NCBI GenBank assembly: GCA_028284445.1
Contig: JANQRS010000006.1
Span: 1-64,000, forward strand
Direction: 5' to 3'
Length of the DNA stretch: 64,000 nucleotides
DNA from: Calditrichia bacterium
GTDB taxonomy: Bacteria; Calditrichota; Calditrichia; RBG-13-44-9; J075
Shown here: positions 46,929-61,610 of the stretch, in pieces
Numbering within the stretch: the first letter of the stretch is position 1
Layout: each line of letters begins with the position of its first letter
Notes under the pieces: model-generated
What the model was told of the DNA's origin: nothing
Database searches by the model: none
The model's input: only the letters and a program-made list of their open reading frames with translations
Translations under genes and position numbers: made by a program

Positions 46929-48059
46929 ATGAAATCACAAAACATAAAAATCCACCCAGTCCAATCACGCCGTTCCCTCAGCACCTTCATCAATATTCCC
47001 TGGCAAATCAATGCGAAAAGTCCCCATTGGGTGCCCCCGCTGCGAATGGACCGGCGACGAATTCTGGATCAAAAGCGCCACCCCTTTTATAAAGAGAATC
47101 AAGCGGCATTTTTCATTGCATATCAAGCGGGCAAAGCGGTTGGCCGCATTGCGGCGATCTTTAGTCCTGAGCACTGCCGGCGCAGCGGAGAGCAATGCGG
47201 GATGTTCGGTTTTTTGGAAGCAATTGACGATACAGCTGTTTTCTCAGAGCTAATGGAGGCAGCGGAGGAATGGCTCAGCCAATTTCAATGCAAGCGTATC
47301 ATCGGTCCGATCAATCCGAGCACCAATTACGAGCTGGGATTTCTGATTGATGGCTTTGATTCCCCCCCCTTCCTAATGCTCAGTTATAATCCGCCCTACT
47401 ATGATGGACAGATGCAGAAACTCGGCCTGCAAAAAGTACGCGACTTCTATGCCTGGTATATCGACAAGCAACGCCTGCAAGTACCGGACAAACTGATCCG
47501 CATTCGCAAACGTGTTGTCAGCCGGCTGCCGGTCACAATTCGTAGCGGCAATATGAAACATTTTGATCAGGAGTTGAAAATCCTGCAAGACATCTATAAT
47601 GATGCCTGGCAGGACCACTGGGGCTTCCTGCCAATGTCGGATGCGGAATTCGCCCATCTTGGCCAAGATTTACGACTGATAATCGATCCGGAATTGGTCC
47701 TGATTGCCGAATATGAGCAAGAACCCATTGGATTTTTGCTGGCATTACCTAACTTTAACGAAGTGCTGATTCACATCCGCAATGGGCGACTGCTACCCAC
47801 CGGCCTTTGGCATATTCTGAAACGACGGAGAAAAATCCGTGGCGTCCGCGTTATCACATTAGGCGTCAAACGCCAATTCCAGCAATCAGGGCTTGGGAGT
47901 CTCTTCTATGAAGAAATCGCTCGGCGCATTATTACCCAGGAATACGATCATGCTGAAATGTCCTGGGTGATGGAAGACAATGGACCAATGAATAGCGCTG
48001 CCCGGCTGCTGGGCGGGAAGAAGTATAAGACGTATCGATTGTATGAGAGGGAAATATAG
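46929..48059 (+). CDS. GNAT-fold acyltransferase-like protein
   Basis: This is a 376-residue protein of a GNAT-related family: FFIAYQAGKAVGRIAAIF and MFGFLEAIDD at the N-terminal half, LGVKRQFQQSGLGSLFYEEIARR near residue 320 as an acyl-CoA-binding-like segment, and EMSWVMEDNGPMN at the end. It is longer than simple acetyltransferases. No clear ribosome binding site precedes the ATG. Its location beside lipid kinase and CdsA genes, opposite the sphingolipid genes, suggests an acyl transfer role in lipid synthesis (inference). Confidence 0.75.
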   Translation: MKSQNIKIHPVQSRRSLSTFINIPWQINAKSPHWVPPLRMDRRRILDQKRHPFYKENQAAFFIAYQAGKAVGRIAAIFSPEHCRRSGEQCGMFGFLEAIDDTAVFSELMEAAEEWLSQFQCKRIIGPINPSTNYELGFLIDGFDSPPFLMLSYNPPYYDGQMQKLGLQKVRDFYAWYIDKQRLQVPDKLIRIRKRVVSRLPVTIRSGNMKHFDQELKILQDIYNDAWQDHWGFLPMSDAEFAHLGQDLRLIIDPELVLIAEYEQEPIGFLLALPNFNEVLIHIRNGRLLPTGLWHILKRRRKIRGVRVITLGVKRQFQQSGLGSLFYEEIARRIITQEYDHAEMSWVMEDNGPMNSAARLLGGKKYKTYRLYEREI

Positions 48060-48067
48060 CAACCAAA

Positions 48068-48111
48068 CATCCCCCCTATATGTCCCCCCGGGGGGACATA
48101 TAGGGGGGATG
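48068..48111. repeat. 44-bp GC-rich palindrome (copy 3 of 4)
   Basis: This is a perfect palindrome starting CATCCCCCCTATATGTCCCC. It begins 8 nt after the acyltransferase stop and ends 36 nt before the lipid-kinase-like start. The core differs from copies 1, 2 and 4, but the CCCCCC arms and overall size are kept, with compensating changes in both arms. Confidence 0.92.
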
Positions 48112-48147
48112 CCTTGAAAATTTCAGATTTGATGTAAAGGAGCACGA

Positions 48148-49068
48148 TTGAATCCTCCCACCAGGATATCGCGCCATTTTAAATTTCTTGTGAATCCACG
48201 CGCCCGAAACGGTCATACACTTGGGCGCTTAAAGCGCTTGCTGGATTCATCAAGCGCCGAACTATCTTACGAGATCGTTGAAACGGAAAACCCGGCTGAG
48301 TTGCGGAAAGAGGTTTCAAACTGCAAAGATGACCATATCCCGGTCGCTGTCGGTGGTGACGGAACGATCAATCTCGTTGTGCAGACCCTGCTGGAAACAA
48401 ACAGCCTCGATAAGCCAATCGCTATCATGCCCTTCGGTACTGGTAACGCTGTGGCGCGTTCAATTGAGATCCATACATTGAAGAAGGCAATTCAAGTATT
48501 GGAAAGCGGCAAGGCTGTCCACCTGGACATTATGAAAACCACCCATCCCGAAGCGCCGGTAGCGCTCATTTCCATAAGCGTTGGCTTTGAGTCCCGCTTC
48601 CTGTTTCATTATGCCCGACAGCGCCGATATACCAATGCCATTGCTGGAATTATGGCCCTGATGCGCAGTTCTCCTTTCAAATCAGATCAGTTGGAGGTCC
48701 GTCTCGATGGCCGGGAACTGGTGACCGGTAGGGACCGCTACTACAACCTCGGGCTCTATAATTTACCTTGTTTTGCCTTTGGCTGGAAGGTGCCCCCTGC
48801 AAAAGATCCGGCAGATGGATTTTGCGAAGCAATTGTATCCGATTCCGCATTATCGTACTGGCCGCCGCTACTGGCTGCAGCCGGGCGATACAAGCACGAG
48901 GATCCGCCGGCGGAACGCTGGAGACGCTGGCAACGGGCGGAAATCGATACAACGTTGCCGGTTCAGATTGATGGGGAATCCATTTCCAGCGGGCGCTTTG
49001 AGGTAGAAGTACTGCCTCAGTCGCTTCACATCCTTGCCCCCGCTGACTTTAAAGGAAGCCACAACTGA
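48148..49068 (+). CDS. Diacylglycerol/sphingosine kinase family protein (YegS/LCB5-like)
   Basis: This 306-residue protein has GGDGT at 69-73 and MPFGTGNAVARS near 112, the nucleotide-binding hallmarks of the DAGK_cat family that also includes sphingosine kinases. It is expected to phosphorylate a lipid alcohol at the membrane. The start is TTG with AAAGGAG ahead. It overlaps the CdsA gene by 1 nt. In this context the substrate could be a sphingoid base or ceramide rather than diacylglycerol. Confidence 0.85.
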   Translation: MNPPTRISRHFKFLVNPRARNGHTLGRLKRLLDSSSAELSYEIVETENPAELRKEVSNCKDDHIPVAVGGDGTINLVVQTLLETNSLDKPIAIMPFGTGNAVARSIEIHTLKKAIQVLESGKAVHLDIMKTTHPEAPVALISISVGFESRFLFHYARQRRYTNAIAGIMALMRSSPFKSDQLEVRLDGRELVTGRDRYYNLGLYNLPCFAFGWKVPPAKDPADGFCEAIVSDSALSYWPPLLAAAGRYKHEDPPAERWRRWQRAEIDTTLPVQIDGESISSGRFEVEVLPQSLHILAPADFKGSHN

Positions 49069-49757
49069 TGAACGGTATCAATACCGGTTCAGACACCTTC
49101 CGCAAAGTATTGGTCGCCCTGATCGGCATTCCCCTGGTGCTATTGATGATTCTAAGCCTTGAGCCAATCTGGCTCTATGGTTTCTTCCTCATAATATCCA
49201 TCCTGGCGGTTTCCGAATTGGTGACAATGTTTCGCAGTGATACTATAAGCGGACAGAAAGCCTCTCCTCTACTGCTTTATCCAGCCGCGGTCTTTTATGG
49301 ATTGGTTTTCCTGCTGGCAATGATCGCCATTCGCGAACTGCCGCAAGGCAGCGATTGGCTGCTGCTGACTATTGGGGCAACCTTCTTCAGTGATATCGGG
49401 GCATTTCTTGCCGGACGCTATTGGCCGGGCAAACGGCATACCTTGCCGGCTTGGCTTAACGAACGGAAATCATATGAAGGCATTATCGGTGGGATTATAC
49501 TGGCTGTTTTTGCGGCTATTTTGCTGTTACAGGCACGGGCCTTACCGCTGTCCCTTGACGGACTCATCTTGCTTGGCGCCTGCATTGGTCTGACAGCACA
49601 GATGGGCGACTTGCTTGAATCGCGCTTAAAAAGAATTGCCGGCGTCAAAGATTCCGGACGAATCCTATCCGGACAGGGCGGTATTCTCGACACTATTGAC
49701 GGGCTGGTATTGAGCGGCCCCACAGCCTGGTTGTTGATTCAGGCCCTGGCACGCTGA
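49068..49757 (+). CDS. cdsA: Phosphatidate cytidylyltransferase (CdsA family), short form
   Basis: This 229-residue membrane protein transfers CMP from CTP to phosphatidate or a related phospholipid. The family signature is SRLKRIAGVKDSGRILSGQGGILDTIDGL near the C-terminus; the canonical DR of the end is DT here. ATFFSDIGAFLAGRYWPGK matches the mid-protein motif. It is shorter than the Escherichia enzyme. The tail overlaps the SDR gene on the other strand by 19 nt. Coupling to a lipid kinase suggests kinase then cytidylyltransferase action on one lipid. Confidence 0.88.
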   Translation: MNGINTGSDTFRKVLVALIGIPLVLLMILSLEPIWLYGFFLIISILAVSELVTMFRSDTISGQKASPLLLYPAAVFYGLVFLLAMIAIRELPQGSDWLLLTIGATFFSDIGAFLAGRYWPGKRHTLPAWLNERKSYEGIIGGIILAVFAAILLLQARALPLSLDGLILLGACIGLTAQMGDLLESRLKRIAGVKDSGRILSGQGGILDTIDGLVLSGPTAWLLIQALAR

Positions 49758-50572
49758 CGCTTGTCTTTCTCGACAATCCGATCCATGATTCGGAAATAGA
49801 GCGTCGGCCAGACGATTTTGACCAGCCTGATAAAGCGGCTTTCGATATTGCAAAAAACTTCGAAGTGATTGCGGATTATGCCTTCCACAAAGCGAGTTGC
49901 CACGTGAGCGGGTTGAAGCACACTGGCGTTTTTGCTAAGCGCCCGGCTTTCCGGCAGCGTATTTTCATGTTCAAATGCCAGCATCGGGGTATCTGTATCC
50001 GGCGGGAAAACAATGGTGACGCCAAGTCCATACTCAGCAGCTTCCATCCGCAAACATTCGGCCAGACCGGTCACCGCAAACTTTGAAGGCGCATAGCCGC
50101 TGTAGCCAATCGCGCCAAGGTATCCGGCAACGCTGGAGACAAATCCAATATGGCCATCGCCGGAGTGAATCAGGTACGGCCAGGCAGCCTTGAGGGCATT
50201 CACCATGCCGCCGTAGTTCACATCCATCACCTTCGCCAGCTCTTCCGGCGAATTATCTTCAAAGCGTCCGCAAATCATGGTGCCGGCATTATTGATCAGC
50301 GTATGAATCCCGCCATGTTTCTCGCCAATCTCATTCATTGCCCCAGTAACGGCTGCTTCATCGGTCACGTCAACTGCGATACTAAAAACCGAAATCTGTC
50401 CGCCGTATTCAGTGCGAAGCGTCTGAACCGCTTGATTCAGTCGATCCGTGCTTCTTGCCAGTAGCCAGACTTGCGCGCCCAATCCAGCAAAACGCCCGGC
50501 GATCTCCAGACCAATTCCGGAAGACCCACCGGTGATGACGACGTTTTTGCGGCGAAAGCGTTCTGTTGTCAT
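49739..50572 (-). CDS. 3-ketodihydrosphingosine-reductase-like SDR
   Basis: This 277-residue short-chain dehydrogenase has NADP-binding TGGSSGIG (14-21), NNAG and catalytic S146/Y160/K164 (YSGYAPSKFA). The stretch IVFPPDTDTPMLAFEHENTLPESRAL is the pattern typical of 3-ketodihydrosphingosine reductase, which reduces the product of serine palmitoyltransferase. A C-terminal hydrophobic/basic tail is present. The ATG at 50572 is chosen because the longer frame is made of 8-bp repeats. A serine-palmitoyltransferase-like gene lies 1.5 kb upstream on the same strand. Confidence 0.85.
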   Translation of the reverse strand: MTTERFRRKNVVITGGSSGIGLEIAGRFAGLGAQVWLLARSTDRLNQAVQTLRTEYGGQISVFSIAVDVTDEAAVTGAMNEIGEKHGGIHTLINNAGTMICGRFEDNSPEELAKVMDVNYGGMVNALKAAWPYLIHSGDGHIGFVSSVAGYLGAIGYSGYAPSKFAVTGLAECLRMEAAEYGLGVTIVFPPDTDTPMLAFEHENTLPESRALSKNASVLQPAHVATRFVEGIIRNHFEVFCNIESRFIRLVKIVWPTLYFRIMDRIVEKDKRQRARA

Positions 50573-50580
50573 GGGCAGCT

Positions 50581-50622
50581 CGTTGAATCGTTGAATCGTT
50601 GAATCGTTGAATCGTTGAATCG
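50581..50622. repeat. 8-bp tandem array (CGTTGAAT, about 5 copies)
   Basis: Five copies of CGTTGAAT lie directly upstream of the SDR start codon and extend its reading frame with a low-complexity peptide that I do not regard as real. Confidence 0.9.
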
Positions 50623-50660
50623 TCAAACGTGCAATTTGGCAAAACCGTTCTAACGTTTCA

Positions 50661-50718
50661 ACGCTTTTACGCTTTTACGCTTTTACGCTTTTACGCTTTT
50701 ACGCTTTTACGCTTTTAC
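50661..50718. repeat. 8-bp tandem array (ACGCTTTT, about 7 copies)
   Basis: About seven copies of ACGCTTTT lie 40 bp from the CGTTGAAT array, in the same 228-bp gap between the SDR gene and the acyltransferase-like gene. The two units are unrelated in sequence but share the 8-bp period. Confidence 0.92.
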
Positions 50719-50800
50719 AGTTTAACAAATCAACCAATTGACTTCTGTGAACTCGGCACACAAAGTCAATCACCAAGTATCAGGTATCCAGCATTCAGCA

Positions 50801-52045
50801 TCAAGTATCCATTTCTTTAAACACCCTGGGCTCAGCCAGAATCACTTCCGGGAAGAGTAGTCCGCGCATTCCCTTTAATAAGCGATGCACGAGGCCGTTC
50901 TGTGCCCTCAGATAGAAATGCTCCGCAATGCAGTCTGCACCAAGGCGTTGCTTGAGCCAATATGACGTTTGCCCTAATTTCAGCATCTCAAATTCGTTTT
51001 CGATACCGTATTCGATGATTGCCTGGACCAGATTGAAGTAGGCATGCGATTCGTCGCGACGCGCATAGTCAATACCAACCAGCGCAAAATTGAGGATTGA
51101 GCCGCTTTCAATGAGCAGTGCCACGGCAAGCAAGTCTTCGTTGTCATGCAAGGTTATCAGGGTAATATCTTCAGCATGCTGCTCGAACAAAAACTGAAAA
51201 AAATCAGCGTTTAAGACTTCCAGCTTCACCTCCGCCCGGGCCATGACTTCCAGATAGAGATCGTAAAAGCGTTCCGACGAACAAAGCTCCGTTCCGCCAA
51301 CACGAATTTGGAACCGATCGTCATCGCGACCGCTTTCATGGAAAGCCGAATGTGTTCGCCCAATTTTTCCGAATGCGCGACGCACCGCCCGCCGGTAGGG
51401 ATAGCGCATTTCATCCATATAACTGCCGAAATCCGGCCAGCGCAGGCCAAGTTCGGCATAAGGGATACTGTTAGCGCGAAAATATCCAAGCGAGTTGAGA
51501 ATGTCAAATCGAGGTCGAATTTCTTCGCGAATCTCTTTGACAACTGCATAGCGGATGCCCTCTGCCTTTTGGATATTTTGCATCACCCGACTCAGCCGTT
51601 CAAGCACAGCGGCCGTATCCGCGGCATCCGCAATCACGATATTTTGCTGACCGAGAGAAATTGGCAGACCACAAAACAAAATCCGGATTTGCAAAAATCC
51701 CGGGACATAGCGGCGAAATTTCTGAGCAACACTCTCGATTAGACCACCGGCAAACATATCCAGACGCACGCGAAAGGCACTGAGTGCCGCCGTCGCGACC
51801 AGTTTATTGTCGCGCTCAAAAATAAGATACCAAAAATCGGCAGATTCCACCCGGGCATCTTCAATCGCAGCAATAAACCGGTGTGCATGATAGACATCCG
51901 CTTCATCATTGATGCTATCCCACAGCTGTTCGTCTACATCATGGATAGATCGGAATAGGCGCAGCGTCAAATCATCCGCAGATCTCTTATTTTCAGGGGT
52001 TGAATAACCGCTTTCGGTTGGCGGATGTTGCACTACACTTTTCAC
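50801..52045 (-). CDS. FemAB/GNAT-like N-acyltransferase, candidate ceramide synthase
   Basis: This is a 414-residue protein with two GNAT-like halves (FWYLIFERDNKLVATAALSAF; ITLITLHDNEDLLAVALLIESG and MLKLGQTSYWLKQRLGA at the C-terminal part), as in FemAB-type and related acyltransferases. The GTG start overlaps the stop of the serine-palmitoyltransferase-like gene (GTGA), so the two products are made together. Bacterial ceramide synthases belong to a GNAT-type acyltransferase group, so N-acylation of a sphingoid base is a good candidate reaction. This is inferred from position. Confidence 0.7.
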   Translation of the reverse strand: MKSVVQHPPTESGYSTPENKRSADDLTLRLFRSIHDVDEQLWDSINDEADVYHAHRFIAAIEDARVESADFWYLIFERDNKLVATAALSAFRVRLDMFAGGLIESVAQKFRRYVPGFLQIRILFCGLPISLGQQNIVIADAADTAAVLERLSRVMQNIQKAEGIRYAVVKEIREEIRPRFDILNSLGYFRANSIPYAELGLRWPDFGSYMDEMRYPYRRAVRRAFGKIGRTHSAFHESGRDDDRFQIRVGGTELCSSERFYDLYLEVMARAEVKLEVLNADFFQFLFEQHAEDITLITLHDNEDLLAVALLIESGSILNFALVGIDYARRDESHAYFNLVQAIIEYGIENEFEMLKLGQTSYWLKQRLGADCIAEHFYLRAQNGLVHRLLKGMRGLLFPEVILAEPRVFKEMDT

Positions 52046-53355
52046 AGGGCAACACCATTATTGACATGGGCTTGTTCTCGAAATGCGCTCAAAACCGTAT
52101 CGAGCATCTCTTTGGATTGAGCGGCAGTCACACAAAGCCGCAGGCGGGCTTTGCCGCGCTGAACGGCAGGAAACACCACGGCCGATGTGATGATCCCTTT
52201 GTCAAACAATGCTCTCGACAAACGCCAGGCATCTTCGTCACGTCCGCAAATGACCGGCACGATGCAGCTTTCCGACTGACCGGTATCGTACCCGAGTTCA
52301 CGCAGGCCGGTCTTCAAATAGATGGCATTTTCATTCACCCTGGAAATGCGCCAACTTTCCCGTTGGATGACTTCAATCGACGCTTTCGCAGCAGCGGTTG
52401 CAGCCGGACATAAAGCCGCAGAAAACATGAAAGGCGCACCGCCATGCTGCAAATAGATAATCAACGATTTTGAGCCGGCAAGATACCCGCCATTGGCTGG
52501 AATCGCTTTGGATAGTGAGCCCATCCAGATATCGACATCCTCAGCGGCTACACCCCAATGCTGGTGAACGCCTCTCCCCTCGCTTCCCAGCACCCCGATT
52601 GAATGCGCTTCATCAATCATCAGATAAGCATTGTGACGCTTTTTCAATTCTACGATGCCTGGCAGCGGACAAATATCGCCATCCATCGAATAGATACCTT
52701 CTGCGATGATCAGGCGGCGACGCGCAGATGTTTCCAGCAGCACTTTCTCCAGCGAAACAAGATCATTGTGCTCAAAAGTCATTACCGGCACCCGTGCCAA
52801 ACGGCAGGCATCAACGATGCTCCGATGGGCCAGCGAGTCGATAATCACGCAATCGCGCGGTCCCATCAGCGCTGCAATTACAGTCATGTTGGCCATATAG
52901 CCGGAGGTGAAAGTCATTGCCGCTTCTACCTCTTTAAATCGGGCAATCTCTGTTTCCAAATCGCGATGCAGCTTATTGCTCCCGGTCAATAGCCGCACAC
53001 CTCCGGTCCCGGTCCCAAATTGGGAAACCGCTGCCTGCGCCGCTGCCTCGATATCCGCATGACCAATCAATCCCAGGTAGTCATACGATGACATCATCCT
53101 CAAATGCTGATTATCTAAACATACTTCCGGACCGGCTTTGCCGTCGAAGCGCTGTTGGTAGGTATAGAGATCGCTGTCCATGCCCCAACCAATCGTCCGA
53201 AACCAGCGTCGCGCAATGGTGTTATCCAGCAGGCCGCCTTTTTCCGGGAGCCAGGCAGGATTTTGCGAGAAAAAGCCGTCAAAAGGATCATCCGCTTGTG
53301 GCGCATGGTCTTCAATCGCAGGTTGACTTCGGTGATGTCCATTGTTCGATTTCAT
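52042..53355 (-). CDS. Serine palmitoyltransferase-like PLP enzyme (alpha-oxoamine synthase family)
   Basis: This 437-residue PLP enzyme condenses an amino acid with an acyl-CoA or acyl-ACP. It has SSYDYLGLIGHADI, GTGTGGVRLLTGSN, His177 (SLAHRS), DEAHS (248-252) and PLP Lys283 (GSLSKAIPANGG). The family includes KBL, BioF, ALA synthase and SPT. The adjacent reductase and acyltransferase favour SPT, the first step of sphingolipid synthesis. The N-terminal 60 residues are an extra acidic extension. The ATG overlaps the stop of the upstream radical SAM gene by 4 nt. Confidence 0.85.
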   Translation of the reverse strand: MKSNNGHHRSQPAIEDHAPQADDPFDGFFSQNPAWLPEKGGLLDNTIARRWFRTIGWGMDSDLYTYQQRFDGKAGPEVCLDNQHLRMMSSYDYLGLIGHADIEAAAQAAVSQFGTGTGGVRLLTGSNKLHRDLETEIARFKEVEAAMTFTSGYMANMTVIAALMGPRDCVIIDSLAHRSIVDACRLARVPVMTFEHNDLVSLEKVLLETSARRRLIIAEGIYSMDGDICPLPGIVELKKRHNAYLMIDEAHSIGVLGSEGRGVHQHWGVAAEDVDIWMGSLSKAIPANGGYLAGSKSLIIYLQHGGAPFMFSAALCPAATAAAKASIEVIQRESWRISRVNENAIYLKTGLRELGYDTGQSESCIVPVICGRDEDAWRLSRALFDKGIITSAVVFPAVQRGKARLRLCVTAAQSKEMLDTVLSAFREQAHVNNGVAL

Positions 53356-54848
53356 ATTGCCTCAGCTCTGTTGTTCACGGATTGCTCACCGGTCGGAATT
53401 TGCGGCGTCGTTAAACCATCCACTTCCGGCCCGCGATCTGTTGCCCGTTCCAGTTCGTGCGGCAAGTGATGTCGATGAGCGGTCAGGAATTGAAACATAA
53501 TTTTGAATGCGCCGGACCAAAGTCGCAGATACTTAGGCGTCCAGACCGCAGGGCGAGTCCGCAAGGTCAGGCGATTAGCGCGACGAATATCGAGAATGGC
53601 CCGGGCGTAAACACCGAGCAATGCCCGATAATATTTCTTCAAGGGCATTTTGGTCGGCAAGAGCATATGCGACAAATCCCAGAGTCCATGTGCAGAACGG
53701 CTGACGGTTACCTTATCCTTGTATTCATCCCAAATCAAGGTGCCCGGCAGCGGGGTGAGGGGAGAGATATTGAGATAGTACAACCCGGTTTCGTCAATGA
53801 ACTGACTGAGGCGCCGCCAATCCTCCGGTGTATAATCCGGTTGCGGAATCAACGAACCGTAGGTATCCACGCCATATTTGCGCAGCACCTCGATGGCCTT
53901 GCGATTATAATCAACTGTGCACTGTTTGTCCATCGAGTCGAGCTCCGGATCGGTGGATGCTTCCAGGCCGATCAATACTGCACTGAGTCCCATTTCCGCC
54001 CATAGCTCGATCATATCCTCGTTTTCGGCAATAAAGTCAGCCCGTCCGTATACCAGGTATTTCTTGCGAATATTGCGCTCCTTGAGCATATCCGCCAGTT
54101 TGATGAGGCGTGTGCGATTAATCAGAAAGATATCATCAACGATGTAGACATCTTCCGATTCGATTTGCTCAAGTTCGTCGGCAATCGACTCCGGACTACG
54201 CGAGTAGGGAACGCCATCGGTAATTCGCCAGGTAAAGCAAAAGTTGCATTTATACCAGCATCCCCAGGTGGTTTTCATGGTGGCTACCGGCTGGTGAAAC
54301 AGATAATAGTAGCGATCGCGCAAATGGGCAACCAGATCACGTCGGGGGAAGGGCAATTCATCCGGCTTCGGCATGTACACGCGATCTGGTGTAAAATGCA
54401 GTTCCGAATCTGAAAGGGGGATTGCCAAACCAGGAATGTCGTGCAAGGGCTTATTATTTTCGAAGGCGCCAATCAGTTCCGGCATCATGGTGGTGCCATC
54501 ACCGAGAACAATGCAGTCAATGGCCGGATCAGCGAAATCTTCCGGCGCCTTGGAGGCATGTACCCCGCCAACAACGGTTTTGCACTCGAGACTAAAGGAC
54601 TTCGCCATCCGGCAGACCTTCTTCACCTCATTTACACCAGTAATATAGCAACTGGTGCCAACAACATCCGGCTTAAACTTGCGAATGCGACGCTTTAGCC
54701 CTTTCTCCAAGATGCCATCAAAAATTTCAATCTCATGTCCATCCAATCCGGCCGCAACATATTCCAACTCCAATGGTTCACAGATCATCACATTCTTCAG
54801 GCCGATGGTATGCCTGGGCACCGGCGGACGAACCAATAAAATTCTCAT
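53352..54848 (-). CDS. B12-binding radical SAM protein 1
   Basis: This is a 498-residue protein with an N-terminal cobalamin-binding Rossmann domain (MRILLVRPPVP to about 150, including LEYVAAGL and VVGGVHASKAPE), then the [4Fe-4S] motif C197-x3-C201-x2-C204 (GCWYKCNFC) and a radical SAM barrel. Such enzymes methylate or rearrange unreactive carbons, often in lipids, cofactors or natural products. AAGGGGG precedes the ATG. It is coupled to the SPT-like gene by a 4-nt overlap, so its substrate may be a lipid. The reaction is unknown. Confidence 0.88.
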   Translation of the reverse strand: MRILLVRPPVPRHTIGLKNVMICEPLELEYVAAGLDGHEIEIFDGILEKGLKRRIRKFKPDVVGTSCYITGVNEVKKVCRMAKSFSLECKTVVGGVHASKAPEDFADPAIDCIVLGDGTTMMPELIGAFENNKPLHDIPGLAIPLSDSELHFTPDRVYMPKPDELPFPRRDLVAHLRDRYYYLFHQPVATMKTTWGCWYKCNFCFTWRITDGVPYSRSPESIADELEQIESEDVYIVDDIFLINRTRLIKLADMLKERNIRKKYLVYGRADFIAENEDMIELWAEMGLSAVLIGLEASTDPELDSMDKQCTVDYNRKAIEVLRKYGVDTYGSLIPQPDYTPEDWRRLSQFIDETGLYYLNISPLTPLPGTLIWDEYKDKVTVSRSAHGLWDLSHMLLPTKMPLKKYYRALLGVYARAILDIRRANRLTLRTRPAVWTPKYLRLWSGAFKIMFQFLTAHRHHLPHELERATDRGPEVDGLTTPQIPTGEQSVNNRAEAI

Positions 54849-54882
54849 AAAACCCCCTTTTCATTGATTATTGAAATATTTC

Positions 54883-54990
54883 ATTGGCCGTTAAATTATG
54901 AAAGAGATGTCGGATTACATTGGCCGCAAAATCATCAAAGAGGTGTCGGATTACATTGGCCGCAAAATCATCAAAGAGGTGTCGGATTAC
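54883..54990. repeat. 36-bp tandem repeat, three copies
   Basis: Three 36-bp units start with ATTGGCCG and end with GTCGGATTAC. The first unit differs in its centre. They lie just upstream of radical SAM gene 1. Because 36 is a multiple of three, the plus-strand frame from the ATG at 54898 to the stop at 55035 keeps a 12-residue repeat KEVSDYIGRKII. Confidence 0.92.
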
Positions 54991-55064
54991 GCCTTTAGCC
55001 ATTCCGCGCAATTTTCAATTACATGCCGCGGCTAATCCAACCTACAGTATTGCTGCCAACGTTC

Positions 55065-55110
55065 TTTCAATCCTTCAATCCTTCAATCCTTCAATCCTTC
55101 AATCCTTCAA
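55065..55110. repeat. 8-bp tandem array (AATCCTTC, about 5 copies)
   Basis: About five copies of AATCCTTC lie directly after the stop codon of radical SAM gene 2 (its 3' end on the minus strand is 55113). Confidence 0.92.
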
Positions 55111-55112
55111 TG

Positions 55113-56432
55113 TTATACGATTCCCGGACAAATTCGCTGCTGCACATGATCGCGGTAATGGAAATTAACACCCCAGATAAAGGCCCGCATGTATAATCCC
55201 AGTGAAGCACGGTTGCGACCGACACGCTGTAATATTGACTGAAGCGTAAAGAGTTTGTCATAAATACGCCAATAGCCTTTTTGCAATTCGTCTGGCGAAA
55301 AATTCAGCGGTTTGTAAACCACCTGTCCGCCGCTGAAGCGGCCGAAATCGTCGGATACCATGCGGCCTTTTTCGATCAGTTCATCATAGAGCGGCGTTCC
55401 CGGAATCGGCGTCATGATGTGAATGCGCGGCACGGTAATTTGGTTATCCATGATAAAATCGTAGGTTTTCTGGAAGACGCTGTCATCGTCGCCATCGAGC
55501 CCAATGATCATTTCGGTGGACACATCAATGCCGTATTTACGAATCGCCTTAATTGCTTCTTCATATCGTTCCGGGCGATTCCATACTTTATCCACCGTTT
55601 CAAGACTGTTGGCATTAACCGTTTCTATGCCAAAGGAAAGCAGGCGACAGCCACTGCGATGCGCCAATTCCAGCATTTCCGGACGCTCCGCAATGTGCAG
55701 GCTACACTGGCTCATCCAAATAATCTTTTCCGGAATCAGCGCTTCCCAGAGTTCGGCGCAATAATCGAAGTCCACGCCTATATTGTCATCAATAAAGGCA
55801 ATGTAGCGGCTGCCGGAGCGCTTGGCAGCGCGAACGTCACGGATCACCTGGTCGATGGGCCGTTTTCGATAGCTCTGGGTGAAGAAAGAGGTGATGGAAC
55901 AATATGAGCAGGTAAAGGGACATCCGCGCGTGGCCTGAACCGGACGCCAAACGCCCAGCTTCGAGGCATTCATGAGATCATAACGCGGTAATGGCAGTGC
56001 GTCAATTGCCGGACGTTTTTCCATGCGATAGATCTTCTGCAGGCGATTGCCCATAAAATCTTCGAGGAGCTTCGGCCAAACATCTTCGGCCTCTCCAATC
56101 ACCAGGGCATCCGCATGCTCAAGCGACCACTCTGATTTCGCCAGACTGGCGGCAATGCCACCTTGAACCACGGTTACACCACGCTTGCGAAATTCATCGG
56201 CAATTTGCCAGGCACGAACAATGCCGGAGCCCATGCCGGTCACACCAACCAGATCCCAATGTTCATCAAAGGGTATATCTTCAACGGTTTCCGAAAGCAG
56301 GCGTATGTCAACTTCCGGTGGCGTTACTGCAGCCAGCATTGGTAAGGTCAATCCCGGCAGGTGCAGCTTCCGTTGTTTAATGGGACGTCCGTTATAATCG
56401 AGTGCAGTAGGACCAATGAGCAAAGCCTTCAT
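55113..56432 (-). CDS. B12-binding radical SAM protein 2
   Basis: This is a 439-residue protein with an N-terminal cobalamin-binding-like domain (MKALLIGPTALDYNG, GLTLPMLAAVTPPEVDIRLL, VVQGGIAASL, VIGEAEDVWP), the cluster C171-x3-C175-x2-C178 (GCPFTCSYC) and a radical SAM barrel (FIDDNIGVD, SFGIETVNANSLETVDK). The start at 56432 is preferred to the longer frame because of family N-terminus and GAGG ahead. It is probably the first gene of the minus-strand lipid group, 264 nt before radical SAM 1. It may be a hopanoid- or lipid-modifying type enzyme, but I cannot name the reaction. Confidence 0.85.
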   Translation of the reverse strand: MKALLIGPTALDYNGRPIKQRKLHLPGLTLPMLAAVTPPEVDIRLLSETVEDIPFDEHWDLVGVTGMGSGIVRAWQIADEFRKRGVTVVQGGIAASLAKSEWSLEHADALVIGEAEDVWPKLLEDFMGNRLQKIYRMEKRPAIDALPLPRYDLMNASKLGVWRPVQATRGCPFTCSYCSITSFFTQSYRKRPIDQVIRDVRAAKRSGSRYIAFIDDNIGVDFDYCAELWEALIPEKIIWMSQCSLHIAERPEMLELAHRSGCRLLSFGIETVNANSLETVDKVWNRPERYEEAIKAIRKYGIDVSTEMIIGLDGDDDSVFQKTYDFIMDNQITVPRIHIMTPIPGTPLYDELIEKGRMVSDDFGRFSGGQVVYKPLNFSPDELQKGYWRIYDKLFTLQSILQRVGRNRASLGLYMRAFIWGVNFHYRDHVQQRICPGIV

Positions 56433-56627: not shown

Positions 56628-56676
56628 AGAAAGACTTTTCTTGTCGCTGATCGATCACACTGTCGAAGGACCTTGC

Positions 56677-57159
56677 ATGCACGGAAACAAGCTGGACGAT
56701 ACCGATATACGTATCCTAGAGATTCTTCAAAAGCGTGCGCGCACAAAACGCGGACAACTGGCAGAAGACGTTGGCTTGTCAATACCTACCATCAGCGAAA
56801 GACTCCACAAACTGGAGCGCTACGGGTTCATCAAGGGATACCATGCGGCCCTGGACCCCATGAAAATCGAACTTGGCATCACGGCATATATTCACCTCAC
56901 TACTCATTCCGCAAAACACTATCAGGAAATTATCGATGCTGCCGAGGCGGATGAGCGAGTTATGGAGTGTCATACGATTACCGGTTCCGGCTCTCATTTA
57001 CTTAAAGTGCGAACCATCGACACAAAACATCTTGAAGCCTTATTGACGGAAATACAGTCCTGGCCGGGAATTGTGAATACCCGCACGGATATCGTGCTCT
57101 CTACAGGTAAGGAAACAGCCAATTTGCCTTTACAGCATTTAAGAACAAAACAAGACTGA
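56677..57159 (+). CDS. Lrp/AsnC-family transcriptional regulator
   Basis: This 160-residue regulator has an N-terminal winged helix-turn-helix ([44 protein letters not shown]) and a C-terminal RAM ligand-binding domain ([33 protein letters not shown]). AAGGA lies 7 nt before the ATG at 56677. The stop is 1 nt from the start of the RpiB-DeoC gene, so it is cotranscribed with the microcompartment operon and probably controls it in response to a small-molecule ligand. Confidence 0.9.
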
Positions 57160-57160
57160 T

Positions 57161-58564
57161 ATGACCACACCATCAGCAGACATTCGCTGCATTGCCCTGG
57201 GCTCAGATCATGGTGGTTTTTCCATGAAGAATGAGCTGCATGGCTACCTCGAGCAGAAAGGATTTACGGTTGAAGACGTCGGTCCGTTTTCCGACATGTC
57301 TGTCGACTATCCGCTGTTTGCTTACAAGGTGGCGGCGATGGTGGCTTCAGGTAAGGCGCAGCGTGGTATTATGATTGATGGTGCCGGCATTGGCTCCTGT
57401 ATGGCAGCCAATAAAGTGCCGGGCATCCGTGCAGCGATGTGTTATGATAAGAAAACCGCCATTAACAGCCGTGAGCACAATAATGCCAACGTACTGACGC
57501 TCGGCGCCGGTTTGTTGTCGATGGATGTCGTGAAGGAAATCATCAATGTCTGGCTAGTCACCGATTGTACGGCCGACAGACATCTGCGGCGCGCCAAACA
57601 AATAGTGGATTTGGAAGAGCATGTTGAGCCCGCCGGCCGGGAAAGAATCAACAATAGCGGAGATACCATGAAAGACATCGGACCTGCAGAACTGGATCAA
57701 ATTGCGCAGGCGATAACGGCAATTTTTCGAAGCCAGGGCATCAGTGCCCCTGGCTGTGACTGTACCTGCTGCGGCGGCGATTGCGGTGGACACTGTGCGG
57801 ACAAAGCAAGCGATGCGGTGCAGGAGATTATCAACCTTGGCGCCAGCCGCATCAGTTATCGCCTCGGGGGCAACGGGGTTCCCAGCGATGTTGCCGGATT
57901 TATCGACCACACACTTCTCAAGCCGGATGCCTCCGAAGAGCAAGTTCGCAAGCTATGCGAAGAGGCACGCGAGTTTAATTTTGCCTCAGTCTGTATCAGT
58001 CCAACCTACGTGAAGTATGCAGCCTCACTGCTGCGCGGTTCGAGCGTAAAAGTGTGTACAGTGATTGGCTTTCCCAGTGGCACCCATTTGCCGCAAATTA
58101 AAGGCCTGGAAACCCGTCAGGCAATCCGCGATGGTGCCAAGGAAATCGACATGGTCATTAATATCGGTGCCTTGAAAAATCGCGACCTCGATTTGCTTTA
58201 TCGCGATATTCGTTCAGTTGTCGAATCTTGCGAAGACGGCCGTGCTATCTGCAAAGTAATTATCGAGACAGCGCTCCTTACGGATGAAGAAAAAGTGATC
58301 GCTTCACAAACTGCGCGCAGAGCGCGAGCCCATTTTGTGAAAACCTCAACCGGGTTTGCATCAGGTGGTGCAACCGCCCATGACGTTGCATTAATGGCAA
58401 CAGCCGTCCAGGGCAGCGGAATGGGTGTCAAGGCGTCCGGCGGCATTCGCAGCCTGGAAGATGCCCTCGAGATGATTGAAGCCGGGGCTACACGCATCGG
58501 TGCCAGCGCCAGCGTGCAAATCGCACGCGGCGAAACCAAAGTCACAGAAAGCAATAATTATTGA
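57161..58564 (+). CDS. RpiB-DeoC fusion enzyme with microcompartment targeting-like linker
   Basis: This is a 467-residue fusion. Residues 8-150 form ribose-5-phosphate isomerase B ([21 protein letters not shown]). Residues 245-460 form deoxyribose-phosphate aldolase with D330, Schiff-base K394 (FVKTSTGF) and K424 (GVKASGGIR). Between them, residues 175-193 form an amphipathic helix ([17 protein letters not shown]) like BMC encapsulation peptides, and residues 199-212 hold six cysteines and one histidine. The usual catalytic Cys of RpiB is Asp73 here. It likely isomerises pentose phosphates and splits deoxyribose 5-P to acetaldehyde and glyceraldehyde 3-P inside a microcompartment. Confidence 0.9.
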
Positions 58565-58648
58565 AAATTGAAGAATGAAAATTGAAGATTGTTTTCGATG
58601 TTTCAATGCTTCAATCTTCAATAATTCAATGCAAAGGGAGTCGTTCAT

Positions 58649-59266
58649 ATGGTAGACCTGCGGTCTTTTGTCATCCTTGATAATTTACAACCTCAACATG
58701 CGGCATTTCTCGGAACCGTTGCCAAGGGTTTTCTACCGGTCGCCGGTATGGCATCTCTCTGGGTGGAAATTTCACCGGGCATCGAAATTAACCGGGTGAC
58801 GGACATTGCTCTGAAGTCAACCGACGTCACACCGGGGATGCAGATTGTTGAGCGTCTCTATGGATTGCTGGAAGTCCATTCTCATTCCCAGGCAGACGTA
58901 CGTCAGGCCGGACAAGCCATCCTGGACGCCCTGGACCTACAGGAAACCGATCGCCACAAGCCGAAGATACTGTCCAGTCAAACCATTCGCCGGGTGGACG
59001 ATTATCAAACCCAGTTGATCAATCGGGTTCGTCACGGCAATATGATTATCCCCGGGGAGACACTCTACGTGCTGGAAGTTCAACCAGCCGCTTATGCAGC
59101 CCTGGCCGCCAACGAGGCGGAAAAGGCCGCGAACATCAACATTTTGGAAGTCCGCGCAACCGGCAGTTTTGGCCGCGTCTACCTCGGCGGCGAAGAACGC
59201 GACATTGATGTGGCTCGCCCGGCGGCGGAACAGGCAATCGAAGCCTTAACAGGGAAAGCGACGTAA
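58649..59266 (+). CDS. BMC-T trimeric shell protein
   Basis: This is a 205-residue protein made of two BMC domains (about 1-95 and 110-200), which trimerises into a pseudohexameric shell tile. [24 protein letters not shown] and [25 protein letters not shown] are typical. GGGAG lies 9 nt before the ATG. It is 84 nt after the RpiB-DeoC gene. Confidence 0.9.
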
Positions 59267-59270
59267 AGAC

Positions 59271-59311
59271 ATTGAAGCATTGAAGCATTGAAGCATTGAA
59301 GCATTGAAGCA
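59271..59311. repeat. 8-bp tandem array (ATTGAAGC, 5 copies)
   Basis: Five copies of ATTGAAGC begin right after the BMC-T stop codon. A single similar unit (GCATTGAAGC) reappears at about 59381. Confidence 0.93.
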
Positions 59312-59394
59312 ATTTAACGGCGGAGTCGTTGCATAACACAGCCTCATGTTCGTCCCTGGCGAACGTGTGGGAAAAGGGAAGGCATTGAAGCGTT

Positions 59395-59430
59395 TACATG
59401 CCCCTGCGTCCCCTTTTTCAGGGGGATGTA
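59395..59430 (+). promoter_or_regulatory. Stable hairpin between BMC-T and BMC-H genes
   Basis: TACATGCCCCTG pairs with CAGGGGGATGTA over 11 of 12 positions with a 12-nt loop ending in a T-run. It lies in the 262-nt gap before the main hexamer gene. It could act as an mRNA processing or stabilising element that raises BMC-H expression over BMC-T. Confidence 0.5.
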
Positions 59431-59534
59431 AAACGAGGTTTGTCATACGCGGCAGAGCCCCGCACGAGCTCGTTTAACAGAACAACGATTCAACGATTTA
59501 CCAAGAAACGAACACCAAATCAGGAGACATGACA

Positions 59535-59837
59535 ATGGCTGAAGCATTAGGAATGATTGAAACCCGCAGCTTTCCAGCAATGATCGAAGCCGCTGACGCA
59601 ATGGTTAAGGCCGCGAAGGTAGAGCTGGTCAGTTACCAAAACACCGGCGGTGGTTACGTCACAGCAATTATTCGCGGTGATGTCGCTGCCGTACGCGCTG
59701 CCTGCGAAGCAGGGCAAACCAGTGCTGCGCGCGTTGGCGAAGTGGTTGCGGTTCATATTATCGCTCGTCCGCACGGCAATGTTGACGAAGTTATGCCGCT
59801 CGGACGTAGCGGTGCAACAACCGCCAAAAAGAAATAA
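59535..59837 (+). CDS. BMC-H hexameric shell protein (PduA/EutM-like)
   Basis: This is a 100-residue single BMC domain: MAEALGMIETRSFPAMIEAADAM, VELVSYQNTGGGYVTAIIRGDVAAV, AARVGEVVAVHIIARPHGNVDEVMP. It forms the hexamers that make most of the shell. GGAGA sits 3 nt from an ATG at 59529 and 8 nt from the ATG at 59535; I choose the second. The lysine-rich tail is short. Confidence 0.95.
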   Translation: MAEALGMIETRSFPAMIEAADAMVKAAKVELVSYQNTGGGYVTAIIRGDVAAVRAACEAGQTSAARVGEVVAVHIIARPHGNVDEVMPLGRSGATTAKKK

Positions 59838-59868
59838 GCGCAAACTCTTCAACTCTTGAGGTAGTGAT

Positions 59869-60156
59869 ATGGTATTGGCAAAAGTGGTTGGTACGGTTGT
59901 CGCCACCCGCAAAGAGGCCAGTATGGACGGCCTGAAATTCCTGCTGCTGCGTCAGATCGATACAGACGGTAAGGAAAGCGGCGGTTTTGTGGTTGCGGCA
60001 GACGCCGTCGGTGCCGGCGTCGACGAAATCGTGATGTATGCCAGCGGCAGCTCGGCCCGGCAAACGGTTGCTACAGAAAATCGCCCCTGTGATGCAGTGG
60101 TGATGGCAATTGTTGATAGCTGGGACATAAACGGCCAAGTGAAATATCGCAAATAA
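59869..60156 (+). CDS. BMC-P pentameric vertex protein (EutN/CcmL)
   Basis: This 95-residue protein has the EutN/CcmL pattern: [66 protein letters not shown]. It caps the shell vertices. It lies 31 nt after BMC-H and 11 nt before the aldehyde dehydrogenase. Only one vertex gene is present. Confidence 0.95.
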
Positions 60157-60167
60157 GGGGACATTTG

Positions 60168-61610
60168 ATGCCACTTAGCGAAGAACAACTGCAGATCATT
60201 GCGCAAAAAGTTGCGGCAAATCTGGGCGCGCAATCGGCACAGCCGGTGAAAGCTGCAAAATCTGCCACACCGACGCATCTATTGGGTGACGGGGTATTTG
60301 CCAATATCGACGATGCCATAAACGCTGCCCAAGCGGCTTTCACCGCATTTTCTGCTCAGTCTCTGGAAATGCGCAACAAGATCATCGAAAGCATTCGCGC
60401 CGATATGCGCACCCATGCAGAGATGCTGGCGCGTGAAGCACATGCTGAAACCGGCCTCGGTCGCGTCGACAGCAAAATCGCCAAGAATCTGCTGGTCACC
60501 AACAAGACCCCGGGAACTGAAGATCTGCAATCCAAAGCCTGGAGTGGCGATGATGGATTAACCCTTGTCGAATATGCCCCCTACGGCGTTATCGCCGCCA
60601 TTACCCCGACAACCAATCCAACCTCAACGATTATCTGCAACACCATTGGCATGCTGGCGGCCGGCAACACAGTAGTTTTTAATGTACACCCGAACGCCAG
60701 GAACATTTCCTGCAAGAACATTCAGTTGATCAATCAGGCAATTACAAGAGTTGGCGGACCACCCAACCTGGTTACCTGTATTGCCGACCCGACCATTGAG
60801 TCCGCACAGGCCTTAATGGCCCACAAAGGCATTCGCCTTCTGGTTGTTACTGGTGGACCCGGTGTTGTAAAGGCAGCAATGGCCAGTGGCAAGCGGGCCA
60901 TATGTGCCGGCCCGGGCAATCCGCCCTGCGTGGTAGATGAAACTGCTGACATTCAAAAAGCCGGACGTGATATCGTTTTTGGCGCATCCTTCGACAACAA
61001 CGTGATTTGCACTGATGAGAAAGAAGTCTTCGTCGTGGAATCAGTTGCCGATGATCTGCTTCGCGCTATGCAGGTCAACAAAGCATTTCTGCTCGATCGC
61101 GACCAGATCAAGCAAATTGAAAAAGTCATCTTCAAGGAACTGCGCGGACCGCGAAAGCCCGGTGTCATCAACCGAAATTGGATTGGCAAAGACGCCAGCG
61201 CGATTCTGGCAGGAATTGGCGTGAATGTCGATAAGTCCGTGCCTTTGGTCGTTGCTGAAGTCGACATCGATCATCCTCTGGTATGGACGGAGCAAATGAT
61301 GCCGGTTTTACCGGTTAGTCGCATCAAGCATGTGGATGAAGGCATCGATCTGGCCGTGAAAGCGGAGCATGGTTTTCGTCATACTGCCAGCATGCATTCG
61401 AAGAATATCGAGAAACTCAGCAAGATGGCCCGCGCCATGAACTGCAGCATTTTTGTAAAGAACGGCCCCAATACCGCCGGCCTTGGCTATGGCGGTGAAG
61501 GCTATTGTTCGTTCTCAATTGCCAGCCCCACCGGTGAAGGCCTTACCGGTCCCCACAGTTTCAGCCGCCAACGGCGCTGCACACTGGTAGATTATTTCCG
61601 CATTGTGTGA
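60168..61610 (+). CDS. CoA-acylating aldehyde dehydrogenase of the microcompartment (EutE/PduP-like)
   Basis: This 480-residue enzyme converts an aldehyde, CoA and NAD+ to acyl-CoA. Residues 4-20 (SEEQLQIIAQKVAANLG) form an amphipathic encapsulation peptide, followed by a flexible linker. The catalytic core has PYGVIAAITPTTNP and catalytic Cys281 (FDNNVICTDEKE), as in EutE/PduP rather than simple aldehyde dehydrogenases. The ATG at 60168 follows AAGGGG. With the aldolase it would turn acetaldehyde into acetyl-CoA inside the shell. No alcohol dehydrogenase or PduL-type phosphotransacylase is seen nearby. Confidence 0.93.
   Translation: MPLSEEQLQIIAQKVAANLGAQSAQPVKAAKSATPTHLLGDGVFANIDDAINAAQAAFTAFSAQSLEMRNKIIESIRADMRTHAEMLAREAHAETGLGRVDSKIAKNLLVTNKTPGTEDLQSKAWSGDDGLTLVEYAPYGVIAAITPTTNPTSTIICNTIGMLAAGNTVVFNVHPNARNISCKNIQLINQAITRVGGPPNLVTCIADPTIESAQALMAHKGIRLLVVTGGPGVVKAAMASGKRAICAGPGNPPCVVDETADIQKAGRDIVFGASFDNNVICTDEKEVFVVESVADDLLRAMQVNKAFLLDRDQIKQIEKVIFKELRGPRKPGVINRNWIGKDASAILAGIGVNVDKSVPLVVAEVDIDHPLVWTEQMMPVLPVSRIKHVDEGIDLAVKAEHGFRHTASMHSKNIEKLSKMARAMNCSIFVKNGPNTAGLGYGGEGYCSFSIASPTGEGLTGPHSFSRQRRCTLVDYFRIV

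Follow-up and report, generated by a model that had tools for sequence, protein, structure and literature searches.

Several described systems each share a part with the locus reported here. In the polyketide synthase (PKS)-linked SgaABC clusters of Pseudomonas fluorescens MYb115, the alpha-oxoamine synthase (AOS) PfSgaB has measured serine palmitoyltransferase (SPT) activity, making 3-ketosphinganines in vitro (PMC12134224). The ceramide/CPG cluster of Caulobacter crescentus comprises spt, acpR, aasR, cerR, cerS, and the ceramide kinase gene CC_1160 (PMC11324152). The hopanoid C-3 methylase HpnR (TIGR04367) and the HpnJ/BchE-like proteins are cobalamin-dependent radical S-adenosylmethionine (SAM) enzymes, and the swf clusters of sponge symbionts combine a PKS and a reductase/sulphotransferase with SwfC, a B12 radical SAM protein and proposed methylase (PMC3908369). 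Here, we describe eight genes at 46.9-56.4 kb of the window, i.e., the first 64 kb of contig C53 in the 8.19-Mb genome of a Calditrichia bacterium. We predict, with a probability of roughly 0.6, that the product of this locus is a modified membrane lipid of the sphingolipid type (N-acyl long-chain base).

As in the SgaABC clusters, an AOS (here of a neighbouring clade) accompanies a short-chain reductase (SDR) resembling 3-ketodihydrosphingosine reductases (KDSR), and a sphinganine-type output is expected; however, the window locus has no PKS and instead carries two cobalamin-type radical SAM enzymes, a CerS-family acyltransferase, a lipid kinase, and a CdsA-like protein. With the Caulobacter cluster it shares the CerS-family acyltransferase (P0008, by synteny) and the DAGK-family kinase, but no AcpR/AasR, CerR-type epimerase, LptF/G, or CDP-alcohol transferase was seen at the window locus, where a reductase of another family and the radical SAM enzymes are found instead. 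One of these enzymes, rSAM1, has the B12-binding then radical SAM domain order of the HpnR and HpnJ/BchE-like proteins. The swf clusters likewise join an acyl-chain pathway to a proposed B12 radical SAM methylase, yet they contain neither AOS nor CerS, and SwfC is closest to HpnP. Finally, classical SPT-CerS-epimerase loci of Calditrichota-like genomes (e.g., L100 and L098) encode P0008 orthologues of 39-53% identity, whereas their SPT belongs to another clade and neither rSAM1/rSAM2 nor kinase or CdsA genes are adjacent there.

Gene arrangement and predicted pathway

The eight genes are intact open frames and form two convergent groups:

rSAM2 (P0001), 55113..56432, minus strand: BchE/PhpK-like radical SAM protein with CX3CX2C; orthologues in G470 (75%) and G168 (61%)
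rSAM1 (P0002), 53352..54848, minus strand: B12-binding and radical SAM protein, HpnR-like, with CX3CX2C at residue 197; ATGA overlap with the AOS gene
P0003, 52042..53355, minus strand: pyridoxal phosphate (PLP)-dependent AOS, SPT-like; sister to a PKS- and fatty acyl-AMP ligase (FAAL)-linked AOS clade
P0004, 50801..52045, minus strand: FemAB_like/Acetyltransf_6 acyltransferase; accompanies rSAM1 in G168, with remote counterparts of this pairing in G387, G405, G425, and Acetoanaerobium
P0005, 49739..50572, minus strand: SDR with a PPDTDTP motif; candidate 3-ketosphinganine reductase
P0006, 49068..49757, plus strand: CdsA-like CTP_transf_1 cytidylyltransferase; 45% match in the G168 operon
P0007, 48148..49068, plus strand: DAGK_cat lipid kinase with a proposed LCB5/CerK-like role; 31% match in the G168 operon
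P0008, 46929..48059, plus strand: GNAT and candidate ceramide synthase, from a family whose genes adjoin SPT and occupy the cerS position

On the minus strand, rSAM1 overlaps the AOS gene, and the AOS gene overlaps P0004, by 4 nt each, while 228 nt separate P0004 from the SDR gene and 264 nt separate rSAM2 from rSAM1. The kinase and CdsA genes overlap by 1 nt, and the convergent CdsA and SDR genes share 19 nt at their 3' ends. Pfam matches comprise B12-binding (68.7 bits) and Radical_SAM in rSAM1, Aminotran_1_2 (189.6 bits) in the AOS, FemAB_like and Acetyltransf_6 in P0004, adh_short in the SDR, CTP_transf_1 in the CdsA-like protein, DAGK_cat in the kinase, and Acetyltransf_1 in P0008. The first-pass annotation had described this gene set, its 4-nt overlaps, the converging kinase, CdsA, and acyltransferase-like genes, and the PPDTDTP pattern of the reductase, all of which are borne out by the open frames, spacings, and Pfam matches. 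The arrangement is not due to chance: the genes are intact, multidomain, and overlapping, and their order recurs in other phyla. The automatic start of the SDR gene, a TTG at 50626, lies beside an 8-bp tandem array (50580-50623) that would then be translated; the true start is therefore probably the ATG at 50572, the array giving a false N terminus.

Ordering the steps by protein family, P0003 would join an amino acid (probably serine) to a long acyl thioester, which may be bound to a carrier protein, to give a 3-keto long-chain base, whose ketone P0005 would reduce and which P0008, of the CerS family, would N-acylate. P0007 would then phosphorylate a hydroxyl, and P0006 would use CTP to activate the lipid phosphate for head-group attachment. 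The predicted target of rSAM1 and rSAM2 is an unactivated carbon, either in the chain itself or in its acyl precursor; cobalamin-dependent C-methylation is the most likely reaction, with ring formation, C-C joining, and oxidation less likely. P0004 may add a second acyl or aminoacyl group. Observed directly are the gene set and its families, the clade of P0003, the linkage of P0008 to SPT, and the recurrence of the radical SAM pair with P0004-like, P0008-like, kinase, and CdsA genes.

Candidate ceramide synthase and reductase

Relatives of P0008 occur in 36 genomes of our phylum sample (40 Calditrichota-like genomes of one class), and in 30 of these 36 they lie at most 1.5 kb from an SPT gene on the same strand, several such loci also holding a CerR-type epimerase. 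The window genome is unusual in the phylum in that its P0008 is not beside a classical SPT. Elsewhere, a P0008 relative is the middle gene of an AOS-GNAT-epimerase trio in Streptomyces NBC_01001, with a like trio in Rubrobacter radiotolerans (epimerase/oxidoreductase operons), and another lies directly upstream of an AOS fusion gene in Legionella wadsworthii. In Roseomonas mucosa, the relative follows two LptF/LptG genes, with a sterol-desaturase-family gene between, and precedes an NTP transferase gene in a cluster that also holds acyl carrier protein (ACP), AOS, DAGK, and CDP-alcohol transferase genes. This order matches that of Caulobacter (CC_1156/1155, cerS CC_1154, CC_1153; PMC11324152), with the P0008 relative in the place of cerS.

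Given this SPT linkage and cerS position, P0008, and not P0004, is the likely ceramide synthase as assigned by synteny. The GNAT/FemAB-like P0004, initially taken as the acyltransferase of ceramide synthesis, was rejected as the main ceramide synthase, since it is P0008 that holds the SPT linkage; the ceramide-type gene set as such is supported by the comparative data. A PDB search returned no match for P0004 and only short, weak GNAT matches for P0008. Despite its PPDTDTP motif, P0005 scores below the cut-off of the KDSR model NF049977 (106.5 against 400 bits).

Phylogeny of the oxoamine synthase

The AOS-fold motifs DEAH, SLSK, and ARLR of P0003 (PLP lysine and conserved His/Asp/Arg) align with those of SPT, KBL, and BioF. 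In the maximum-likelihood (ML) analysis, P0003 forms a clade with its G470 and G371 counterparts (98/91) that is sister to PKS/FAAL-linked AOS (98/94; whole group, 99/96). The classical SPT clade, which includes the Sphingobacterium SPT (100/100), is separate from P0003 in both ML trees, and the support placing P0003 apart from KBL/BioF is 99/98 in one tree and 91/96 in the other. Because approximately unbiased (AU) tests of joining P0003 with KBL/BioF (p = 0.054) or with classical SPT (p = 0.048) are borderline, "third clade" is a fair statement of the predicted position of P0003. The clustering with KBL/BioF that would have spoken against an SPT-like enzyme is thus not what the ML trees recover, although the first of these AU values is to be kept in mind; on the other hand, the clade adjoins PKS/acyl-ligase-linked enzymes and not classical SPT.

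A search of genome contigs with P0003 found six relatives, all of them AOS fused to or beside acyl-activating/polyketide machinery: fusions of ~1100 aa in two Planctomycetes metagenome-assembled genomes and L. wadsworthii, and AOS next to PKS-like proteins of ~2,550 aa in a Methylococcaceae member and two Halomonas, the FAAL-ACP-AOS fusion and PKS calls being based on size and initial sequence rather than on a domain scan. At the AOS loci of further relatives, PKS neighbours are annotated, and a relative on a Streptomyces plasmid occurs with KAS, MaoC, AMP-ligase, and carrier-protein genes. The sister clade of P0003 also includes the AOS of a Pseudomonas PKS-AOS-SDR-LTA-synthase-family locus with an SgaAB-like layout. 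SgaB is probably the characterized type of this neighbouring clade, PfSgaB itself not being in the tree.

The nearest intact AOS (G371) is 50% identical to P0003, and among its neighbours only an alcohol-dehydrogenase-like gene is recognizable. In G016 (L061 179-2719), an AOS with 42% identity to P0003 lies beside an unrelated radical SAM gene, P0011, whose product has no NCBIfam match at E 1e-20; this case is too thin to interpret. A genome of the window's own family encodes a proteobacterial-type SPT (L117; G003:C241) that exceeds the NF047599 cut-off (628 against 500 bits), and the data suggest repeated SPT replacement in the window's lineage.

Radical SAM enzymes

rSAM1 combines a B12-binding domain with a radical SAM domain carrying CX3CX2C, as do class B cobalamin radical SAM methylases, and its best-matching model is that of a lipid C-methylase, HpnR (TIGR04367), which it matches over its full length at 229.3 bits (cut-off, 650). 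In the tree it does not group with the annotated HpnR of Kozakia, and by both score and tree we reject the identification of rSAM1 as HpnR. Two cobalamin radical SAM enzymes had been proposed for the locus; the B12 domain of rSAM1 agrees with this, whereas the window's rSAM2 has no B12-binding match even at E = 1, and for this protein the domain is detectable only in relatives (35.3 bits in G456 and 32.5 in Acetoanaerobium, both above the cut-off of 32.1, and 26.2 in G470, below it). In view of the clear B12 domain and the full-length HpnR match of rSAM1, methylation of an unactivated carbon is a plausible leading guess for the predicted chemistry of the pair. Ring formation or oxidation is a less likely alternative; BchE, HpnJ, OxsB, and the proposed ladderane enzymes are cobalamin radical SAM proteins for which such reactions are described (PMC13142503).

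Recurrence of the module in other phyla

Among 385 sampled genomes, rSAM1 relatives above 40% identity occur in one genome besides the window's and P0004 relatives in two, and a single genome of another phylum, G168, holds both. There, one tight operon encodes a P0008-like protein (48%), a third radical SAM protein, the kinase (31%), CdsA (45%), rSAM2 (61%), rSAM1 (62%), and a P0004-like protein (40%), uniting six of the window's eight genes, all but AOS and SDR. Since both the kinase and CdsA genes sit in this operon, they belong to the module. A classical-clade SPT is encoded elsewhere in the G168 genome.

A search of the phylum of G359 yielded G470, from yet another phylum, in which rSAM2 (75%), rSAM1 (72%), and the AOS (61%) follow each other in the order of the window, and the rSAM1 stop and AOS start overlap as the same ATGA. 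The tight coupling of rSAM1 to the AOS, noted from the window alone, thus recurs. The broader expectation of radical SAM genes next to SPT in relatives holds in part: rSAM2-rSAM1-AOS is present in this other phylum, but the classical SPT loci read in the window's phylum are without such genes. A second rSAM2 copy in G470 is partial (L131 5154-5708; 76% identity to the window's rSAM2) and lies ~3 kb from the complete gene; it is either a duplication or an assembly artefact.

Remoter sets of rSAM1 and rSAM2 occur in G456, G405, G425, and Acetoanaerobium noterae, and in G387 a GNAT gene accompanies rSAM1-like genes. As expected of partners, the rSAM1 and rSAM2 trees recover the same two groups, one of the window, G470, and G168 and the other of G456, G405, and G425. 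These comparisons point to a conserved core of rSAM1, rSAM2, and acyltransferases, with the AOS a partner in two known cases (the window and G470). As the pair is found in operons without AOS, its target need not be a sphingoid base.

The operon of A. noterae DSL2 (L138 2014-10042) consists of seven genes (four radical SAM, two acyltransferase, and one methyltransferase) in the order CerS-like, Acetyltransf_6-like, rSAM, methyltransferase, rSAM1, rSAM2, rSAM1-like; its record is labelled a 2.6-Mb plasmid but is probably the chromosome. The G405 row (L134 1128-12676) comprises an Orn/DAP/Arg-decarboxylase-like PLP enzyme, two CerS-like GNATs, an Acetyltransf_6 GNAT, rSAM1, an MMPL exporter, and rSAM2. 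An IncF plasmid of Citrobacter portucalensis (L140 7429-18815) carries five rSAM2-like genes with a GH3-type ligase, a GNAT, a PAP2 phosphatase, and a fatty acid desaturase, and the rSAM2-like genes of Paraclostridium, Treponema, and Synechocystis have no shared gene context.

Alternative explanations

Several observations weigh against a modified sphingolipid as the product. P0003 falls under the SPT equivalog cut-offs (NF047600, 329/640; NF047599, 312/500; NF047603, 238/670 bits), the AU test against its union with KBL/BioF is borderline, and no PKS, FAAL/acyl-ligase, or ACP gene was recognized beside it at 43-60 kb of the window. The G168 operon is without AOS, and the G470 AOS ceases to match after residue 246, in a genome that is 9% contaminated; this truncated copy may be broken or misassembled. 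The 228-nt gap between P0004 and the SDR gene and the 264-nt gap between rSAM2 and rSAM1 contain repeats, and the minus-strand genes may therefore form more than one transcript. The rSAM1 score is about one third of the HpnR cut-off, and related cobalamin radical SAM enzymes include nonmethylases (PMC13142503).

The absence of an AOS from the operons of G168, G405, and A. noterae is also what one would see if the rSAM1-rSAM2-P0004 module built a different lipid or lipoamino acid, with P0003 supplying an alpha-oxoamine of alanine, glycine, or cysteate as one possible building block. The decarboxylase-like PLP enzyme and MMPL exporter of G405 fit such a product, as does the Arg that follows the catalytic His of P0003 (DSLAHRS), a position held by Ala in most SPT/KBL rows. 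We nevertheless consider this rather unlikely, since the same locus holds the CerS-family P0008 and the PPDTDTP reductase, the closest characterized type of AOS uses serine, and only remote versions, of 34-42% identity, occur in G405 and Acetoanaerobium. The classical SPT-P0008 loci of the phylum, which are free of rSAM1/rSAM2, and the varied contexts of rSAM1-like proteins at 34-39% identity could instead be taken to mean that two functions are merely neighbours here, an ordinary sphingolipid pathway (P0003, P0005, P0008, P0007, and P0006) and unrelated radical SAM enzymes acting on another molecule; the 4-nt rSAM1/AOS overlap in two phyla and the inclusion of kinase, CdsA, and P0008-like genes in the G168 operon make such a separation improbable. 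Least credible is that P0003 is a BioF/KBL enzyme of the biotin or threonine pathway and the locus not one for a lipid backbone. Its highest raw scores are indeed to BioF (381.6 bits) and BioF/Kbl (379.9 bits), and the AU value of 0.054 is on the same side, but all these scores are below cut-off, the ML trees separate P0003, and no bio or tdh genes are adjacent. Moreover, a KBL/BioF-like paralogue elsewhere in the host genome (C45) groups with Escherichia coli KBL (95-96/87), and P0003 was on this account rejected as the likely KBL of the genome.

The locus is, as judged by comparison across genomes, a real sphingolipid-type locus with a recurrent radical SAM module.

Surroundings of the locus

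Further features in and around the locus are as follows:

P0009, 45925..46824, plus strand: patatin-like phospholipase encoded upstream of P0008, with no support for a role in the pathway
54878..54990, no strand: 36-bp tandem repeat of 3.1 copies between rSAM2 and rSAM1
55066-55111, no strand: 8-bp tandem array in the rSAM2-rSAM1 gap

Additional arrays in intergenic gaps are found at 50580-50718 and 59270-59311, the set consisting of the 36-bp repeat and several 8-bp ones. An Rfam scan of 44-64 kb gave no match. The plus strand at 56641-61600 holds a bacterial microcompartment locus with an Lrp/AsnC regulator, an RpiB-DeoC fusion, two BMC shell proteins, and a EutN/CcmL pentamer; its last gene encodes a protein of ~480 aa judged by eye to be aldehyde dehydrogenase-like.

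Implications

The present comparison newly identifies the candidate CerS gene, assigns the AOS to its clade, adds kinase and CdsA to the module, and reveals related operons in other phyla, one of them in a cultured clostridial species. Since lipid genes accompany the radical SAM enzymes in several other phyla as well, a lipid modification that awaits discovery is probable at this locus. A search of open-access literature found no paper tying sphingolipid synthesis to a cobalamin radical SAM enzyme, one match being on archaeal tetraethers. We tentatively suggest, at somewhat less than even odds, that the window, G470, G168, G405, G425, G456, and A. noterae represent a new operon family over several phyla in which at least two radical SAM enzymes of the cobalamin type act together with CerS-like and Acetyltransf_6 acyltransferases to produce C-modified amino-lipids of a new class, and that the recruitment of their own AOS by the window and G470 gave the first sphingolipid backbone altered by radical chemistry. 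Because A. noterae, a clostridial species known from culture, has a sister operon, the chemistry can be tested directly. If the coupling is real, radical chemistry would be a means by which anaerobic bacteria alter their ceramide-type lipids, and this would bring a further lipid class, which might serve as a biomarker, as well as new enzymes.

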